DNA of 64,000 nucleotides, from the NCBI RefSeq assembly GCF_021134715.1, contig NC_060017.1, positions 5,332,001-5,396,000 on the forward strand, in the 5' to 3' direction. Numbering within the stretch: position 1 is the stretch's first letter; the number at the start of each line of letters is the position of its first letter. Under the pieces are notes generated by a model, which was not told the origin of the DNA, ran no database searches, and worked only from the letters and a program-made list of their open reading frames with translations. The stretch comes from Daphnia pulex (taxonomy: Eukaryota > Arthropoda > Branchiopoda > Diplostraca > Daphniidae). Shown here piece by piece: positions 50,240 through 63,410 of the stretch. A program made the translations under genes and the position numbers.

Positions 50240-50465
50240 TAACTCAATTTGTTAGAGATGAAGAAAAAGAAAGAGGATAAAATAAGAAAACGGGCGAGGA
50301 CGAAGAGGAGAAGATGTGAATACAAATTTGTGAGATAATAATAACTTTCACACATAGTTAAATTTACTTGAGTTATGTATTTCTATACAAGCGCATTCGA
50401 AGCACAAAATTTATATCCATCGCTTTTACTTAGTTAAAATATTTTCCCCTGTCTCTTGGTTCTTC
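50240..50465. repeat. Orphan copy of the secreted-family 3' flank (copy 1 of 3)
   Basis: The segment from AAAGAAAGAGGATAAAATAAG to the GCGCATTCGAAGCACAAAAT region is closely similar to 57480-57670 and 62405-62605. In the other two places it lies directly downstream of a secreted-family gene; here no gene copy follows. It looks like the leftover of a deleted or never-completed duplicate. Confidence 0.75.
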
Positions 50466-51509: not shown

Positions 51510-51890
51510 CTGTAAGTTGTAGGCCCTACCGTAAAGTTTATACTAATTCTTTTTACTTCTTCTTTTGATCATGATCAGAATTTTGGAAAATATTCTTTCC
51601 AGAGAATAACACCTTAAAAGAAAGAACTGTGGTTGTGATAATGTAGCAGCATTGCGTGAGTATTAGGTTTATTATTACCCATTTTTGTTTGGTATGATTT
51701 TTTCTTATTTTATTATAAGTCTTATTTAGCTAGAGCAGGGATCCTTTTCATTTTGCTGTTTAAAATTTTAAACATCTCTTGTTTACAAGGCTAGACGATG
51801 GCTTAGATCGTTTTTCATCAGTCAGAAAAAAACAGTAGTGTCACTGTTTCAGTTACTTTACTTTACGCAATTCTAAAGACATTTATCGGC
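51280..51890 (+). repeat. Left arm of a long inverted duplication
   Basis: Segments here match the reverse complement of 55250-55765 in the same order. Examples are the GTATTCTGCTTAGTT block, the TACTAATTC block, a GAAAATATTCT block, and the block CTAGAGCAGGGATCCTTTTC followed by a TTGTTTACAA piece and CACTGTTTCAG. Similarity is patchy, so the duplication is not recent. Confidence 0.75.
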
Positions 51891-53194: not shown

Positions 53195-55249
53195 AAAAAA
53201 AACTGTCTTGAACCGGACGCTCTGTTTAATGAATTGTTTATTTTGTTTGTGTTCCAGAATAAATATAGTTGACACAATATTTATATACAATGACATTTCA
53301 TTTATTTATATATATAGATGGTTATAGATATACAACAATTGTGTGGTTTGATGTTGGAGATTGTGGGGTTTGAGGAATGGATGTAAGTGGATGTGGGATT
53401 TGATGTTGGTGTTTATGGGGTTTGAGGAATGGATGTGTAAGTGAGGAAGGTTAGATAGGTTAACAACAGATTTTATCACTAAGTATTGCGTATTCATTAA
53501 AAACACACCTCACTTCTTTTAGTAAATGATAATCAAATATCCCACCCCAACTTCCTCCTCATTCCCCAATCGCGGACATGTTTATTATTTGTTTGACATA
53601 AACCTCCCCGTATTACTTTTTTTTTGTTCCTTCTCAAAATATAAAAGGTAAACTGCATAGACACAAATAGCAATTAAACACAATACTGAATGCAACTTCT
53701 GTAGCACAAAACCAGCACCTTGGATGCACAAGGAACAGCAACTTGATGCAGATATCTTTCACCCCTGTCATAGGCTGCAACAACACGCCACATTGGACAG
53801 CAACACCACTGCTATGTAAACATGAACCTATAACCAAAGTAAAATTAATCTTCAGCATCATTGGAAATGCTTTATGAAATTAAAAAAAAATATGCTACAT
53901 TATATTACTTCAAATATTCAACCCAAATATTATATGGCAATATTAACTGATACCTATCGTTGAAACTCAAATTTACATGAAACTAAATTACTCATTTAAG
54001 ATTTAAATACAAAATTAATTTAAACTTTAAAGAATACTCTACTGTGGAACAAATAAACAAAACTTCTTTCAGTATCTGCCTTTCTTGCTTAAGGAAATAG
54101 CTGTTGACTTAACACCCAAAATGTTAAAAACTAACCAATGAATGCAAAGCTTAATCACATTTTAATTGTAAAATCTAAACTGGATAAGATTGTCACCTTC
54201 AAAAAGTGTATGTGTTCATGATGTTCACAGCAAAGGTAAATGCGACTTCCTTGCAGCCTGCACGATTGGATGGAAGTCCTAGATTGGATGGTTGAAGTTC
54301 CTTTTATCAAAAGGTGCCTGCAATCAAACATTACAAATGTTATTATCCAAATATATTTCAATCAGTTTAATTGATAATTTTACCATTCTTAACATTGTAC
54401 AAGTAGAATGTTACTCAGCTTCTCGAAGTGGTGGAAAATATGGTCTCCAAGTCTTAAAGCATCAAAATTCATCTACAGATAAAAAATTACATTTAACACT
54501 TTCACTTTCAGGCACTTTCACTGCACGTGAATAGAATTTAATCGAATCAATACCAAGAATAAATAAATAGCAAGATCACCAACCGCCAACCCGAACCAAC
54601 TAAAACCCATCACAAATTCTAAAAAATGCCTAACAAATTACAAATAGCAATCAAGCTAATTAAGCTAACATCAAAACCCCTAACAAATAAAAATGGCGAC
54701 TCTTTCTCTCAAAAGCTTCAGCTGACAAAAAAACAAGAAAAGGGTAAGGGCTTAAAAGGCTAGCCTACGCCCAACAACTGAAGACAAACCTGGCCACCAG
54801 ATGTCATCTTCAAGCCAACAACAATAACAATTTTAAAAAAATTATTACGACTTAATCCATCAGGGGAACTTCACAATTTGATGAATGGACCAATTTACCA
54901 AATTCGTCAATCACTTCAATCAGGCTCTGAGCAGAGCGACTGATTTGGTAGTGGAGGACACGGAACCAACTGCAATTTACTTTGATTTCATCTTCGCTCA
55001 ACGCCTTCTAGAGTTGAGCAGCTTCTGGGTTGCAGGTTGCTACTCTCGTCGACCATCTTCGCTCAATTTTAGATTACAAGTGATTCGTATCCTGAGTGTC
55101 AGAGCACACGAAATAGCGTTAACTGGATGAATTCTTCCTGCACTGTTTTATGGCATAACAAAATTGACGTTGACGAAGAATTCATCGATCATTTTTCATT
55201 CAGTTTTGCAAACAAAAAATAATTGTGTATAGTAAAAGTTACTGAAACA
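53195..55249. other. AT-rich spacer inside the inverted duplication
   Basis: Apart from the minisatellite I see no supported gene. One 81-residue open frame at 54885-55130 (+), starting MDQFTKFVNHFNQALSRATD, has coding-like composition but no recognisable domain and no splice partners. A CTCF-like CCACCAGATGTCAT lies at 54794-54807. Confidence 0.4.
53325..53460. repeat. Minisatellite, two units of about 60 bp
   Basis: Two units share TTTGATGTTGG, a GTTTGAGGAATGGATGT block and GTAAGTG, with few differences. The sequence is strongly G/T-biased on the plus strand. Confidence 0.7.
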
Positions 55250-55765
55250 GTGAAACTAATGTTTTTTGAACGATGAAAACAATCTAAGCAATCGTAAAGT
55301 CATCTAGCGTTGTAAACAAGACATTTTTTAAATTTAAAACAGTAAAATGAAAAGGATCCCTGCTCTAGCTAATCGAGACTTGCTAAAATTACTAAAATTA
55401 GAAACAAAAATAATAACAAGCGGAAAAATTAAAAAAAAAATTACACTCACGCAAAGACGCAATATTGTTACGCAATATTGTTGAAGATCGCAACCGCAGT
55501 TCTTTCTCCTAAGGCGTCATTCCCTGGTGGACAGAATATTTTCCATAGTTCTGATCATGACCTAAAGGAGAAATAAAAGGAATTAGTACAAACTTTACAA
55601 TAAAACATACACCATATCTATGCAGGAAATTTTAGTTGAATATTTTGAATTTGTCTCAGTCTAAATTCACTTCATTTACAACTGCTAATAGAAGAACAGT
55701 CTCTTAGAAGTTAGAAGTTGAGGAATTTTTAAAAATACAAAGTATTAAATCAACTAAGCAGAATA
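55250..55765 (-). repeat. Right arm of the long inverted duplication
   Basis: This is the reverse-complement partner of 51280-51890. The arms enclose about 3.4 kb that includes the hairpin element, so the hairpin sits inside a larger inverted structure. Confidence 0.75.
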
Positions 55766-57269
55766 TTGTAAATGTAGGATACAGATGATAGATGACCTGC
55801 ATTCTTCTTTTCTTTAAGTTCAATTTAAAACTCACTTTAACTGAGCAAAATTAAATTGGATTTTTTTTAAATTCATTTAGAAATTTTAATTACAGGCCTA
55901 CTGCTATTAAATGCTTTGAAAAGCTTTGGCAAAGCATTTGCACCTGCAGCTCATCTTTTTTACTCAAACAAACCTGAAATAGACAGAAATATTGAAGTAG
56001 AATATATCTGCGTGCGGACGAATTTTATTTTTCATTAAAAATGCTGTTGTTTTAATCTAAAATATTTTACCTCGGCTAATCGTAGCCATTCATCGGCATC
56101 TTGAGGAGATAAATATGCAGCTATCAAAGATAACTGGTATCACTTTTCATACTCTCCAAGGTCCTCATAGAACATGCTTAATAATGCTTGTTTAATTTAA
56201 AGTGGGCCTGAATGACCTAGAAAAAAAAGACATTCAGGCACAAATTTAATCGACATTCAGGCCCTGGGCCTGAACTGTTACTTTTTCATTGGATGGTGCC
56301 TAAAACAGACATTTCTAAAAGACGTTAGAATATGACAGTGATTGATGATTTCTGAGTTTCTACTTTCTAAGGCCATAAATTAAGCGCTGTTTTACAGTAA
56401 GAAAAAGAAACAATAAATATTATGAGAAAATAATCAGATTGTAAACACAATAACAAGTGACTTCCTGGCTATTACAAAAGAGTACTGATATTCACTTAGA
56501 ATATCATAACTACACATTTTGGCAGTTTCCCCATTCCCCTGCCAAATGTTGACAGACAAAAGAGGAAAAAACTAATTTGCAAAAATGTGGCTTTTGTAAG
56601 TAGTAAGCTCGAAGTAGTGTATGTTTATAATTTCACTCAAATGAAAAACAGAAAAAAAATGAAATATGTGGGACCAATATAATACGAAAATATCAATATA
56701 ATATTACATTTCTAAGATTTTTTCTAGGACACTAAAATGGTTCCTGAGTTGTAAACTGGGTTATAATTGGATATTGTCCATCTAACTATTTTGAATGACA
56801 ATCCACTTGAACTTTACGTTGAAATAGTAACGATGCATAATGGAAAAATGCTAATAAAGAACTCAAGATGTGAAGTCTACTATTCAAGCAACCCCATTTA
56901 CCTCTGGCTGATATCCTGCATTCATACCGTACGTTCACATTTCGCAAGCTCTTTTCGTCCTTTTCGTAAATTTATTCAAAAGCTTTCTTTCTTTTCCTTA
57001 CACAACAAAAATATTACTTAAAAACTCTTCTCCACCTTGTTATTGAACAATTTTAACCTTACCTTACGAACTTTTGATGTAAACGTCTTTTGTTATCCGT
57101 GGGTCTTGTTACTGTAGGTTAACACACACGGAAAGTACCGTTGACAATCCAAAATCCAAATCATAACGTGGTCACCAACCGCCATATTTTTTCAACGATA
57201 GTAAAGAAGGAGACAACAGTTATTCATGTCTGGCCTGCCGCGAGATGGAGCAGCACGGATTCATAGCTA
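55766..57269. other. AT-rich spacer, no gene seen
   Basis: Short open frames only. A small inverted motif built on CAGGCCC and GGGCCTGAA occurs near 56205-56275, where CATTCAGG is repeated. Nothing else is supported. Confidence 0.4.
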
Positions 57270-57690
57270 GACGTTTACGCCATCTAGGGTGGGGTATTCG
57301 AGTCTAAAGTTTACCAAACCATTAACGATTAACGGTTTTTTGGACACGCTATTGTAACCTATCCATAACCTTCAATAAAATAAAACAGTTGACATATTTT
57401 TCGTACATGTAGTTCAAATTAAGATCAGACAAAAATCATTAGTTTCTGTCGGTTTAGTCCATTTCGTTTTTTTTCTTCCTCCCTCATAAAGAAAGAGGAT
57501 AAAATAAGAAAACGGGCGAGGAGAAGAAGAGAAGATGTGAATCATACAAATTTATGAAATAATCACATCGATAAATTCACCTGATTTATATTTCCATGCG
57601 AGCGCAAAGCACTACAACTATATCAATTGCTTTTTCAACTGTATTTACTAAGATAAGGATCGGGAATTGAAAGGGAAATTGATAACATAT
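57270..57690. repeat. Duplicated flank, copy 2 of 3
   Basis: This is similar to 62200-62625 along its length: CGCCATCTAGGG, ATTCGAGT-TAAAGTTTAC, GACGCTATTGTA, AGTCCATTTCGTTTTTTT, GGATAAAATAAGAAAACGG, and ATGCGAGCGCAAAG. It lies downstream of secreted-family gene A as 62200-62625 lies downstream of gene C, so gene and flank were duplicated together. Confidence 0.85.
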
Positions 57691-57914
57691 TGGTCTGTTT
57701 ATTTCCAAGGAATCTCAAGAACATGTTATTCATTCCTTTAAAATTAATTAATTATTAATTAGTTATCGCCTTAAACTTCGGTGCCTTAGTTCATGGACAT
57801 CGGTTAATATGCGAATAATAGAAACTTCTCGCTTGTCCACAGATTTGAAAAGCGCTTAACAAGTGTTAAAACTACTTGCTTGAGAGCAAATCGGAGTTGA
57901 CCGAGACGTAGTAG

Positions 57915-58542
57915 TTAGTTAGTTACTGTAGAAGTAGTTGTTGTCGTGTAACCATAATACAGGAAATATTTTGGATCGCCTACAATCATCGGCCGACGAA
58001 AGTATGGATTGTAGTTGTTATTAGAGGAAGAACGTTGACCGATTGTGGATCGAAGTTCGTATAATGGAAAATCAGGACGCCAGTATGCAAGCTGAGGATC
58101 AGGTTTACGTTCTTTCCTGATTATCTCGGGAACACTTGTTGCTTCAACTCTGTAAAACAAAAAACTGAATCTAGCAAATATGTCGAATTAATGTTTACTT
58201 TTTTACTCCTTACTCGTTTACAGGAGATGGTTCAATATTTTCGTCGTCCTCTTCAAGAGCCCTTCTTTTTCGACCAGTATTGCAGGTTGCAGCGGTCGAT
58301 ACAGTGCATGTCGTGGTTGTTGTTGTGGTTGTCGTCGTAGTTGTTGTTGTAAGTAAAGAACCGAATAAAAAGCGTTTGCCATTATAAGCTAAATTTGGGG
58401 TCCGGCTATCAGAGATTGGATAGTAGTTTGGGTATTGATCGGTTGGGTTTGGATAAAAACTGTCGTCAAAGTAAGGCTGATATTGAGCCTTTCCTTGAAC
58501 TATCACAACGTAAACAGAAAACAAGAAAATGAAGAAACGCAT
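57915..58542 (-). CDS. Secreted Thr/Tyr-rich family, copy A (C-terminus frameshifted)
   Basis: Two exons (58542-58214, 58149-57915) joined by a 64-bp intron. I do not recognise the family. An N-terminal signal peptide (MRFFIFLFSVYVVIVQGKA) is followed by QYQPYFDDSFY and more Tyr/Pro-rich sequence, 14 consecutive Thr, a Cys pair in CTVSTAATC, the polybasic site GRKRR, and acidic LEEDDENIEPSPV. Exon 2 gives VPEIIRKERKPDPQ, YELRSTIGQR, NPYFRRP and another Thr-rich stretch, then stops. The paralogues end in a conserved Cys tail. Here that tail exists at 57906-57856 (STPICS to FNTC) but in another frame, after an AACT-repeat insertion. It is probably secreted and possibly cut at the polybasic site. 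The function is unknown. Confidence 0.78.
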
Positions 58543-58640
58543 CTTGTTTTTAAAACTATAGGTACTTTTGTCGGAATTCAGACAGTGGCTCACTGAAATC
58601 TTCAGCTGAGACTGCCAAGTTTGCTCTGCAATCGCAGAAG

Positions 58641-58648
58641 TTTATATA
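58641..58648 (-). promoter_or_regulatory. TATA box of copy A
   Basis: CAGTATATAAAC on the minus strand, about 100 bp before the start codon. The same 12-base context occurs before copy B. Confidence 0.7.
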
Positions 58649-58649
58649 C

Positions 58650-59462
58650 TGTTCATGACGTGGACAAAAGACCAATTTATGAACGATTCCAACTCCTTTT
58701 TGGTTAGTTTCACATCCTGTATTTTATATACGCAATTTTCTCATTTGAAATGAAATTATAAAAAAATCGTGTCTTAAGCCGAAGGCTAAAAGAAGCTTGC
58801 ATTGCTGTAAAAACTTATAATAGAACTAACTGTGCGACCGATTACTTAGCGACATAGCCTGAGGAACAATCAGCAGGAAATTAATTCCTTCGCCCTTGAA
58901 ACTTTACTACACACATGTAAACACTTTTTTTTTTAATCGTTTAAATGTATTAGGGCACGGTTTTGGTTAAATAAAAAATAAATAAAATATGTACGTGTTT
59001 CAAGATTAGCTGTTGTAACGAAATTAGTTAACGCAATTAATATGACTGCAAAATATTTGCATTCGTATCATTTGCGTTTGATGAAGCCTACAACTGCACA
59101 GCCTACGTACGCTGAAATTAAACATAAATTTCTCCAACATAACAACTGAAACCAACATGCATTATTTTTATTTCTTGTCTCATCAAGTAGATTTATACCG
59201 TATTGAACCTCTTCAAAATAGCTGTGAGGTAATCAAAATCTTCAGTCTTCGCCTTAATTGACCTTATTATTGATTGTTTTAAAATATTATAAGTGCTGTG
59301 TATATTTCCATGCAATCTCTGAGCACAAAAAATTATCCATTCGATTTTTTAACTCTTGAGAATTCTTATACGTGCTATCGCCTTAACACTTTCGTCATAA
59401 GTAAGTAATGGAAACAAAATCACACATCTTTTAAGTCAGAAAACAGTGTTAGAATGCGCATT
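58650..59462. other. Spacer between copies A and B
   Basis: AT-rich upstream DNA of copy A and the 3' end of copy B. I see no gene. Confidence 0.45.
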
Positions 59463-60144
59463 TTAACACTGATTGAAACCGCTGCCCGACGAACAAACTG
59501 GTGTCGACCTGGAAGTTACAGTGTAGGTATATGTAGTTGTTGTCGTGATGAAACCAATAGTATAGATTAAAAATCTTGGATCGGCTGCAATTACTGGACG
59601 ACGAATGTAAGGATTGTAACTGTTAGGAGAAAGGCGTTGGCCGATTGTTGAGCGTAGCTCGTAATACGGATAATCAGATTCACGCTCGAATGCCTCTTGA
59701 GGATTTGGTATGCGTTCCTTCCTGTTGACATCCATCTCCGCAAGTTCAGTAGTTTCAACCCTGGTGCAAGCAAATATTGAGTCCATTTAGGTGCTTAAAT
59801 AATCGGAAACTTTTTCGACTTGTTTTGTACTTGATTACAGGAGAAGGATCGACGATGTCATCATCGTCTTCTAGAAACCTTCGACGGCGACCGGATGCAA
59901 GGCAGGCAACATTAGTGTAAACCGTACAGGTAGTAGTCGTTGTTGTTGTTGAAACTGTCGTCGATGTATATCCATATAAAAAGCCCGGTAAAAAGCGATT
60001 CTCGTAACCAGGGTTTGGGGTTCGACCTTCTGCTACTGGATAGCTTGGATATTGATAAAAACTGTCATCATAGTAAGGCTGATATTGAGCCTTTCCTTTG
60101 ACAATAACAATGCAAAAAGTTAATAAAGATACAACAAAACGCAT
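59463..60144 (-). CDS. Secreted Thr/Tyr-rich family, copy B
   Basis: Two exons (60144-59831, 59760-59463) with a 70-bp intron in the same phase as in copies A and C, giving 203 residues. It has a signal peptide (MRFVVSLLTFCIVIVKGKA), then QYQPYYDDSFYQYPSYP, RTPNPGYENRF, a Thr-rich tract, CTVYTNVAC, the polybasic GRRRR and acidic FLEDDDDIVDPSPV. Exon 2 has VETTELAEMD, RKERIPNPQ, YELRSTIGQR, NPYIRRPVIAADPRF, a second Thr-rich tract, and the tail STPVCSSGSGFNQC. There are four conserved Cys in all, which could form two disulphides. The start is the ATG of MRF; a GTG four codons upstream was discarded. This and copy C appear to be the intact members. Role unknown. Confidence 0.83.
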
Positions 60145-60248
60145 CTTAATATACACAAATTCTTTTGTTTTCTTTACTATTATGAACTCAAACTGGTTTG
60201 CCGAACGTTGGTATAGCGACTGTAGATTTTGCTACGGAATCGGGGATG

Positions 60249-60256
60249 TTTATATA
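60249..60256 (-). promoter_or_regulatory. TATA box of copy B
   Basis: CAGTATATAAAC on the minus strand, about 105 bp before the start codon, in the same context as copy A. Confidence 0.7.
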
Positions 60257-60259
60257 CTG

Positions 60260-62199
60260 CAGATGATACAAGTAAAAACCTATTTGCGGTTTACTTTAAC
60301 TCGTATTTTCTTGGTTCAAGAATTCACTTCCTGTGTCCGCTATTTTCTCATTAGGACTGAAAGCGCCATTGGCAAAATTAAATTCAGAAATTAGTGTTTT
60401 TTACGTTGTTGAATCACTATATTGCTGCTATTAACTTATTATGCGGTCGATTAAACATTAGAAGTCCGTTCTATACAGCTTAATTCTCATCGTCTCTCTG
60501 TAACTGGTACTGGATCCAGAGAATTTTAAATTTTAGGAAAAGCATCATATAGGTACTGACAAAACAATTTAAAAAAAAATACGAATATTTACGCCCAAGG
60601 ACAAAAATAAGCATCGTGATGGACCCTATTGACTGAAAAACTGTTATATAGACTTTAAATGCTTTCCAGCAGTGTTTCTATAGGCATTATTTTATTTTGC
60701 AGTCAATTGTTGTTTCCCTATGGCTCTGTGAAATAACACCAGTCTTACCGAATAACCAGAATCGAACCTAACCGTAAAAATTCGATAACCATATAACGAA
60801 CAACGCGTGAATTTTTTAATATAAAATTAGTAGTAAGAGATGGGACAAATAAAACCCAATTTTCCACTACACTTTTTAAAATAAAATTTCCACAAAAAAG
60901 GTTGACCTAACAAATCAGATTACCTGATAACATATAGTTAATCACAATTCAGTTAGCATTAACATATTGTAACTTCTTTAGAAATGATCTAGTACAAAGA
61001 GCATAGTCACAGTCCCATACTAGTTAGGAGCCAATAATGTTACATCTATTACTCTGTTTATAATCATAGCAATTCGCGCCAGCACTCACTAGGTGTCTCT
61101 ATGCAGTACAGTAAATTTTAAAAATAAACAATTACCTTATACAATTATCGTATTAGATAAAATGTGAAATCTTGATGATGTCGCCAATGTGGAATCTTGA
61201 TGTTCTGATAACAGTCGGCGACTTGCTTTACATCGGCAGACTCGGGGAACACCCGGGGTCTCATGGCACTGCAACTGCCGTAGAAGCTTCAAGCTTGCAC
61301 GTATTTCTTCGTAATCGTGATTCGTGAGTCTTAATCGATCTCGTTTGTTGTCGTAGTTGAAGGCTCACGTTTGATGAGGCACACACTCGTAGATCGACTT
61401 GGATTCCGATTCATAACGCCAACACATCGACTATGAAATCAATCTCACAGCCGATATAGAATTGTGGGTCATGGTACGGCTTCCGGCAAAAATTGGCTAA
61501 TTAAAACAACGGCTGGTGCATCGCCCTTTCCGACTGCGGTAGCTGATGACCCAGCGGATGCGAGACTTCCAACAGACCGGATAAGGACTTGCTCACTGAG
61601 CTAAGCTGAAGTTTTACAGGCGCTAGTAAATGAACCAGCAATGTAGTGTTGATGCCAGCAGAACAATTTAACTGGTTTACTGTCCATCGACAGTTCCATT
61701 TTTTTTCCAACAAGTCTTGAATACTGTTCTGTCACTGTCACACACACACACTGCAGCAAGTTGGGCTAGGGCCTGTGCTGAAGTTGGCTCTGATCTGATT
61801 GGGCTTTGGGCGTTACCACGAGCAGGTGGCACGATCGCAAAACCTTCATCCTTCGTGGTCGAAACTGCTATCAACTTTACGAAAACACACACAACCCAAC
61901 GGGATAACTATTTTATTTTGTGTCACTGTAATGTGTAATTATTCTCTTGTATGTTGAAAAGAAGTGGTATTCTAGGTGGGACTCAAGTCACACACCACGG
62001 CTTGCACTGCTGTTTTCGTCAATGTTTTCGTACGGCACGAACTTTGACGTTTTGACGACACCCATCCGACGACACTCAGAAAAACCCAACGTAGTCGCCA
62101 TTTTTGTTTTCAACAGAAAAGAAAGATGGCCGGCATGGCCCAAATCTTCACAGTTATCCATGACTGCCGCTAGACGGCGCGCATTGCTTTTCGCAGACT
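60260..62199. other. Spacer between copies B and C, no gene seen
   Basis: AT-rich to about 61170, then a GC-richer stretch (61190-61900) with several short open frames but no domain. I looked for a decayed fourth family copy and found none that I can support. CACACACACA lies at about 61740-61751. A Pol II unit here is possible but unsupported. Confidence 0.4.
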
Positions 62200-62625
62200 T
62201 TTTCGCCATCTAGGGTTGGGCATTCGAGTTTAAAGTTTACAAATCGTTAACGACTTAACGGTTTAAGTTTTTCGGATTTCGGAGACGCTATTGTACCCTA
62301 TACATAACCTCTAATAATTGTTTCGTACACAGTTGGAATTATGTACAATTATAGGAAAAAAATTTACTGTTTCCATTTGTTTAGTCCATTTCGTTTTTTT
62401 CCTCCTCCTTCACTAAAGAAATCTTGAGGATAAAATAAGAAAACGGACGTGGACGAAGGCGAGGAGATGAATTGACTAAAAAATTATGAGATAATCACAT
62501 AAAAATAAATTCACTTAATTTATATGTATTTTCATGCGAGCGCAAAGTACAAAATTTAGATCCAGCGCTTTTTCAACTGAATTTACTAAGATAAGTATCG
62601 GCTATCGCCTTTAAGTTTCGTTACT
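62200..62625. repeat. Duplicated flank, copy 3 of 3
   Basis: Partner of 57270-57690, lying directly downstream of copy C. It starts at CGCCATCTAGGGTTGG and runs to TTTACTAAGATAAG near 62597. Confidence 0.85.
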
Positions 62626-62670
62626 ACGGTAAATATTATAATTCATTTGCAATGCCAATTGCTATGTGAT

Positions 62671-63317
62671 CTAACATTGGTTGAATCCACTTGGCTGAGA
62701 ACAAACAGGTGTCGATCTGACGGTGGTGGTAAACGTTGAGGTGATAGGTCGGAAGAATAACCGTGGATCAGCAATAATCACTGGCTGACTAAGGTATGGA
62801 TTATAATTGGCAGAAAGATAGAAACGATGGTCGAACGTGGACTCGGGCACTCCGTAATCAGGAGAGTCGCGCCAGTATGGCAATTGCGGATCAGCTTTGC
62901 GATCCTTCCTGATGGAGGGTTCCATCTCGGCAAGCTGTGTGACCTCGATCCTGTTTAAACAGCAAATCAATCCAAATTAATTTAATTTAGAGAAAAACTC
63001 CAATAATTGAAATCCTGAACTGACTTGTTGACTGGACTAGGTTCGATGGAGTCGTCATCGCTTGTAAGAAATCGTTTGCGGCGGCCAGCGCAAATCACAG
63101 CAGTGTAAACCGTGCAAGTAGTGGTGGATGTTGATGTCCTTGCATAAAGATTCCAGAAAAGACGGCCACCAGGAATCAAGTTTGGAGACGGAATAATGTC
63201 AGTGTCAGGATAGTAGCTTGGATGTTGATACAAGCCGTCGCTGTAGTACCGCAGATATTGGGCATTTCCCTGAACTATTAAAGCGGAAACGGACAATAGG
63301 AAAACGAAAAAATGCAT
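62671..63317 (-). CDS. Secreted Thr/Tyr-rich family, copy C
   Basis: Two exons (63317-63025, 62950-62671) with a 74-bp intron, 190 residues. A signal peptide (MHFFVFLLSVSALIVQGNA) leads to QYLRYYSDGLYQHPSYYP, a shorter Thr tract (TSTSTTT), CTVYTAVIC, the polybasic GRRKR, and FLTSDDDSIEPSPV. Exon 2 has IEVTQLAEME, RKDRKADPQLPYW, NPYLSQPVIIADPR, a Thr-rich piece and the tail STPVCSQPSGFNQC. It is the most diverged copy: the YELRSTIGQR block is replaced by VPESTFDHR, while the Cys pattern, the polybasic site and the tail are kept. This suggests constraint on those parts. Role unknown. Confidence 0.83.
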
Positions 63318-63402: not shown

Positions 63403-63410
63403 TATATATA
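63403..63410 (-). promoter_or_regulatory. TATA box of copy C
   Basis: GTATATATAGG on the minus strand, about 86 bp before the start codon. Its flanks differ from those of A and B, in keeping with the greater divergence of copy C. Confidence 0.6.

Follow-up and report, generated by a model that had tools for sequence, protein, structure and literature searches.

What kind of protein do three small neighbouring genes of Daphnia pulex encode, and do they stand alone? The genes, A, B and C, lie on the minus strand at positions 57856-63317 of the 64,000-nucleotide stretch analysed here (hereafter the window; contig NC_060017.1 of the assembly GCF_021134715.1, positions 5,332,001 to 5,396,000, or C1:5332001-5396000 in our genome searches). 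A preliminary description of the window had assigned them to a family of three clustered paralogues with one polybasic site. The coordinates were exact and the clustered paralogues stand, but the description was too narrow: members lie on several chromosomes, and there are two convertase-type sites. The secreted proteins related to A, B and C number several dozen at the least, and most of them appear to be cut twice after export. The window thus shows the margin of a superfamily of Thr-rich secreted proteins, which have two Cys pairs and mostly two convertase-type sites.

Each of the three genes was rebuilt with two exons, separated by a short GT-AG intron (64-74 bases) that follows an exon 1 ending in phase 2 in 3/3 cases. 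Gene C (62671..63317) comprises exon 1 at 63317-63025, an intron of 74 bases at 63024-62951, and exon 2 at 62950-62671, and encodes an intact protein of 190 residues. Gene B (59463..60144), also intact, encodes 203 residues from exon 1 at 60144-59831 and exon 2 at 59760-59463, with an intron of 70 bases at 59830-59761. Gene A (57856..58542) is formed by exon 1 at 58542-58214, an intron of 64 bases at 58213-58150, and exon 2 at 58149-57856; an in-frame stop after 187 residues, within the second Thr run, deprives it of the Cys tail. The B and A proteins are 52% and 51% identical to that of gene C, respectively, and all three display a signal peptide, a Tyr/Pro-rich head, a Thr run, a Cys pair, a basic site, and an acidic block. 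The traits listed in the preliminary description (AQY start, Thr run, Cys pair, GR(K/R)(K/R)R site, DPSPV/EPSPV block, and same-phase intron) are thus borne out by the rebuilt models, as is the presence of the tail STPVC-x4-GFNQC in B and C only. The first basic site of gene C reads CAGRRKR. In gene B, a signal peptide was assigned by inspection to residues 1-19 (60088..60144, minus strand as for all features of this gene), where AlphaFold predicts a helix at residues 2-19. The gene model and the conservation profile place the first Cys pair, C-x7-C, after the Thr run at residues 73-81 (59902..59928), basic site 1, GRRRR, at residues 85-89 (59878..59892), and the second Cys pair at the C-terminus, residues 194-203 (59466..59495). 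Basic site 2, R-K-E-R, identified in the R-x-x-R count, is encoded by exon 2 and covers residues 118-121 (59712..59723). Downstream of the stop codons of A, B and C (about 57761-57776, 59375-59386, and 62601-62615), similar words are discerned by eye around AAGGCGATA; these recurring words could be shared elements of the 3' untranslated region.

Searches of the genome itself (133,188,837 bases, 13 contigs) returned, by hand tally, 72 family places on five contigs, 67 of them with E<=1e-3. The tally kept matches up to E 0.01 together with C1:6907575, known from a profile scan alone, and left out weaker ones such as C3:8619189 (E 8.8) and C7:2682100 (E 0.16). These 72 are loci rather than proven genes: only the best candidates were scored, Thr-rich sequence can inflate scores, and some of the places are broken. 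With gene B as the query, the array extends beyond the end of the window as far as about 5,401,300, with four additional complete copies on the minus strand, and others lie at 2.89 and 7.53 megabases (Mb) of C1. Next to the array come six plus-strand relatives, from 5,403,600 to 5,415,000. Relatives at 6.90-6.92, 7.26-7.29, and 7.76 Mb of C1, and on C8, C7, C5, and C10, were found with plus-strand, clade II, and clade III members as queries. The window subgroup has eight untruncated copies (genes B and C, the four minus-strand neighbours, and those at 2.89 and 7.53 Mb), all of which retain the layout, although two have no Gly at the basic site.

In a tree built from 30 models picked by eye (28 of 44 automatic models, with hand-typed B and I_5411), a branch supported at 97/94 separates clade I (14 rows) from clade II (16 rows); the tree is rooted at the midpoint only, and 11 of its 27 inner branches are open. 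Within it, the three window genes group with their four neighbours and with the copies from 2.89 and 7.53 Mb, nine members in all (support 99/98). Most members share the same succession of a signal peptide, a Thr/Ser run, a Cys pair, (G)RRRR, an acidic spacer, a phase-2 intron, a second Thr run, and a second Cys pair. Both prospective chains carry an R-[FL]-[FL]-like motif ahead of the Thr run, the first chain of clade I being headed by a Tyr/Pro-rich segment. The phase-2 intron occurs in 28/28 automatic models of the tree set, which was selected by eye for conserved blocks; among blind best-scoring splice models it occurs in 36 of 44, several of which lose conserved blocks, and the other eight, including that of B, took another phase. 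Clade III, located mainly on C10 and C7, is likely though not proven kin, judging from its part order and a QFPIxPS block before the intron, both in common with part of clade I. By eye, five of the six clade III genes examined (one gene was entered twice) have an intron that splits a codon behind its second base, at the matching position; in direct comparison, the sequences link only weakly to clade I, with a best E of 0.004. The clade III copies on C10 (L061-L065) and C7 (L066) apparently have a separate signal-peptide exon, some with long Thr/Ser arrays, and additional C10 matches are found around 15.85-15.89 Mb. Although the first and second Thr/Cys modules resemble each other, we do not claim an internal duplication, as the profile comparison reports a probability of 25.6% over 15 columns; this comparison is partly circular, as the modules were chosen by their shared anchors (R-[FL]-[FL], Thr run, Cys pair).

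Site 1, mostly (G)RRRR, comes after the first Cys pair; in the open reading frame (ORF) at C1:6911039 it is found only beyond a long Ser/Thr insertion. An addition to the preliminary description is a further site of the furin type, R-x-x-R, encoded by exon 2 and counted in 31 models picked by eye for intact conserved blocks (30 of the 44, with hand-built B). Of the clade I models, 14 of 15 carry it where shuffling would give 2.7, and of the clade II models, 10 of 16 where it would give 1.8. All six remaining clade II models exhibit instead R-x-R-R before GLFYND in exon 1, leaving the clade I model I_5397 (K-I-T-R) as the only one of the 31 with neither R-x-x-R in exon 2 nor a substitute in exon 1. 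The clade II model II_7258, which has the exon 2 site, displays an extra R-N-P-R in exon 1. In 24 of the 31 models, R-x-x-R precedes the (A)DPQ block or its counterpart. The charge computed for gene B is -7.2 for the spacer and -2.3 and +0.7 for the chains, and we propose a two-chain product because two R-x-x-R-type sites flank this strongly acidic stretch. The window genes thus have the signal peptide, by inspection, and the R-x-x-R sites at conserved places that characterize a convertase-processed preproprotein. This agrees with the processed secreted product of the preliminary description, which would be exported by its signal peptide and is probably cut at the polybasic site. In clade II (L045, L046, L049-L055, L057, L058), the spacers hold a GLFY(D/N)(D/E) or GLLY repeat between basic sites, strongly alike among copies.

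Are these frames under constraint? Among nine clade I coding sequences, the pairwise ratio of nonsynonymous to synonymous substitution rates (dN/dS) is 0.13-0.42 in 33 of 36 pairs, the three others being saturated; as dS exceeds 1 or is saturated for 34 of the 36, the ratios are rough. They are well below 1, and the neutral expectation is not seen. Because eight untruncated copies of the subgroup keep the layout and the ratios are this low, the window genes are not chance ORFs. Conservation over the same nine copies culminates at the basic site and the cysteines, as had been described from the window: (G)RRRR scores 0.77, the Thr run 0.75, the Cys tail 0.69, and the first Cys loop 0.68, as compared with 0.37-0.59 for the other nine stretches. 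A TATA[AT]A box, as expected in strongly regulated genes, occurs within 300 bases upstream of the start codon in 41 of 44 models from clades I and II, against 32% of 4000 random 300-mers of the same loci. TATA together with an initiator-like motif at a set distance occurs in 17 of the 44 (14/20 in clade I and 3/24 in clade II), against 2.1%. In the window, the boxes, all on the minus strand, lie at 63405..63410 for gene C (93 bases before the ATG, initiator-like CCAGT downstream), at 60251..60256 for gene B (112 bases, initiator-like ACAGT downstream), and at 58643..58648 for gene A (106 bases, no initiator match at the set distance).

Database searches are in keeping with the earlier view of an unrecognised family. 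Pfam analysis of six proteins reports matches only at E 0.02, 0.16, 0.79, and 7.7, every one below the cut-off, NCBIfam returns no match for three proteins, and the PDB holds no relative of the gene B protein. Pattern searches of viral contigs and of bacterial and archaeal genomes gave 174 and 113 matches, respectively, none confirmed as relatives. AlphaFold predictions for the exon pieces of A, B and C have a mean predicted local distance difference test (pLDDT) score of 46.3 and 45.5, and only the signal-peptide helix is modelled with any confidence. In the open-access literature, by titles and the starts of abstracts, and outside subscription papers and supplements, no such family is described, and six family peptide strings have no occurrence in open PMC literature. 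A study of predator-induced Daphnia pulex mentions over-represented paralogue families, some without an assigned function (PMC4514973), and the passages available from it display no sequences. Water fleas are rich in genes that lack known relatives, about 10,000 of 30,550 putative proteins according to another report (PMC3584848).

Several known systems share part of the layout with the family. The secreted Thr/Ser-rich segment of mucin-like proteins is present. The new-glue proteins of Drosophila, arthropod mucin-like or glue proteins, are likewise small, secreted, Thr-rich, and encoded by clustered genes; a single clade II member hits their Pfam entry (PF21827) at chance level (E 0.79; 9.9 bits, where the cut-off is 31), and to our knowledge they do not combine two convertase sites with two Cys pairs. 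Insect vitelline membrane proteins are convertase-processed extracellular coat proteins, and resemble the family as secreted precursors with furin-type sites and a removed propeptide, the latter being proposed here; their Cys and repeat layout differs, and no Pfam relation to them was found for the six proteins. Arthropod cuticle proteins form large tandem families, are secreted, and contain Tyr/Pro-rich stretches, all of which recur here, but the six proteins scanned have no Pfam cuticle or chitin-binding domain. In the precursors of crustacean cardioactive peptide (CCAP) and CCHamide, short peptides with a disulphide ring and an amide that are encoded by few genes, a Cys loop is shortly followed by Gly and basic residues, as in the present family; unlike in those precursors, the loop here terminates a long Thr-rich chain, and does so in dozens of paralogues. 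Lastly, the cysteines after the signal peptide form two pairs and do not follow the six-Cys A/B chain pattern of insulin-like two-chain hormones.

Which role fits best? From the sequence, a processed extracellular-matrix or mucus/coat protein appears the most likely answer, although a tentative one. A furin-type convertase of the secretory route would cut both sites and the acidic spacer would be excised. Of the two Thr-rich chains left, each would be closed by its own small disulphide loop, or the pair would be bonded together. The spacer would hold the chains soluble until export; the chains, O-glycosylated or β-structured and in clade II possibly amidated at their ends, would then assemble in an extracellular layer such as the cuticle surface, mucus, gut lining, or egg covering. 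The layout and intron phase common across clades speak for such a role, as do the recurrent R-x-x-R site, the conservation of (G)RRRR and the Cys loops, the low dN/dS, the TATA boxes, and the acidic spacer, and the absence of a predicted globular fold would suit a matrix or mucus protein. Several observations weigh against it. AlphaFold had three sequences per exon and was uninformative, so that the missing fold is weak evidence. None of the six Pfam-scanned proteins contains a chitin-binding (Rebers-Riddiford type), cuticle, or other matrix domain. Site 1 is not universal, as the clade I ORFs at C1 5403608, 5405880, 5408198, 7757830, and 7764221 have no polybasic run, and its count is barely above shuffling (11/15 against 7.1 in clade I, 16/16 against 10.5 in clade II), in a test that is weak because the stretch is Arg-rich. 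Finally, the Gly and basic residues that end clade II chains suit signalling peptides better than matrix proteins. An alternative in which the mature form is never cut, the basic sites being structural and the protein one mucin-like chain, can draw on these site-less members (at least five in clade I) and on the 4 of 13 captured clade I first chains without Gly, cutting being inferred. It is made unlikely by the recurrence of R-x-x-R before the (A)DPQ block or its counterpart and by the six clade II models with the exon 1 site, I_5397 being the sole exception. That the loci are non-functional, as chance ORFs or decayed copies, is extremely improbable given the conserved frames, splice sites, promoters, and dN/dS, even though gene A is truncated, an exon 1 at C1:7261398-7261875 is split across two frames, and C5:2969094-2969360 contains four stops.

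The chain ends bear most directly on a hormone-like role, in which a convertase would free disulphide-looped, amidated peptides, perhaps including the clade II GLFY(N/D)(D/E) spacer peptides, to act on receptors. Gly followed by basic residues is a known C-terminal amidation signal. In clade II, Gly immediately precedes the basic run in 24/24 distinct first chains. Of the distinct genuine C-termini, 18 of 22 end in Gly plus Lys/Arg, against 0.41 expected from shuffling the 24 scripted rows, two of which were set aside as unrelated ORFs; the chain ends of this clade may therefore be amidated. These counts, and the GLFYDD/GLFYNDDE repeats between basic sites, favour hormone-like precursors. In the other clades the signal fades: C-terminal Gly and basic residues are found in 0/18 genuine C-termini of clade I (five further rows, unrelated or exon-1 ORFs, being excluded) and in 1/3 of clade III. 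Among first chains caught by the script, Gly precedes site 1 in 9/13 of clade I (the exceptions being I_5401, I_7527, I_6914, and I_7759) and in 5/8 of clade III, leaving 3/8 without it; the script missed gene C, C1:6913357 (LGRRRR), and C1:6911039 (AGRRRR), which all have Gly, and also the five clade I members without site 1. The window genes thus have the trait on their first chains and not on their C-terminal ones, and even in clade II the C8:3603981 protein runs beyond its GKK, outside the C-terminus filter. Moreover, hormone genes do not typically have long Thr runs or occur in dozens of divergent copies. For the family, a peptide-signal role ranks next after the coat or mucus role, and is rather unlikely. 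Defence effectors, duplicating secreted peptides released by a convertase against microbes or parasites, would account for the tandem arrays, the many dispersed copies, the possible disulphide loops, and the TATA promoters. Such effectors are nevertheless an improbable answer: the gene B chains, the only ones computed, are not cationic, none of the six proteins has a Pfam match to an antimicrobial family, and the pairwise dN/dS averages give no sign of positive selection, though single sites could be hidden in them.

A broader and rather unlikely proposal is that roughly seventy loci constitute a hitherto unrecognised superfamily of two-chain secreted products, with a conserved acidic linker excised at two convertase sites, disulphide-loop ends, and amidation of each chain end in one clade, that would serve as a lineage-specific extracellular signalling or coat system. 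Some seventy loci without a description in the searched libraries are united in one superfamily under a common processing plan, whose predictions (two cut sites, two Cys pairs, and amide ends in one clade) can be tested in proteomes; this offers functional work a single handle in place of many separate orphans. The surprise is limited because orphan families of this kind are common in Daphnia; the shared two-site plan and the amidation-like ends lift this one above a mere list of unknowns.

A segment at 55199..58553, for which no strand applies, is 94.6% identical to C1 about 2893619-2897000, where gene A has an untruncated sister; the match extends to the end of the compared 2.89 Mb locus and may be longer. 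Up to the stop of A, the two genes differ by a dN of 0.049 and a dS of 0.117. Gene A is one partner of a recent segmental duplication, namely the partner without the tail. Elsewhere in the window, the stretches 62196-62595, 51531-51872, and 50266-50339 are about 75-91% identical to the flanks of the 2.89 Mb copy, and possibly represent a dispersed repeat or a shared 3' flank.

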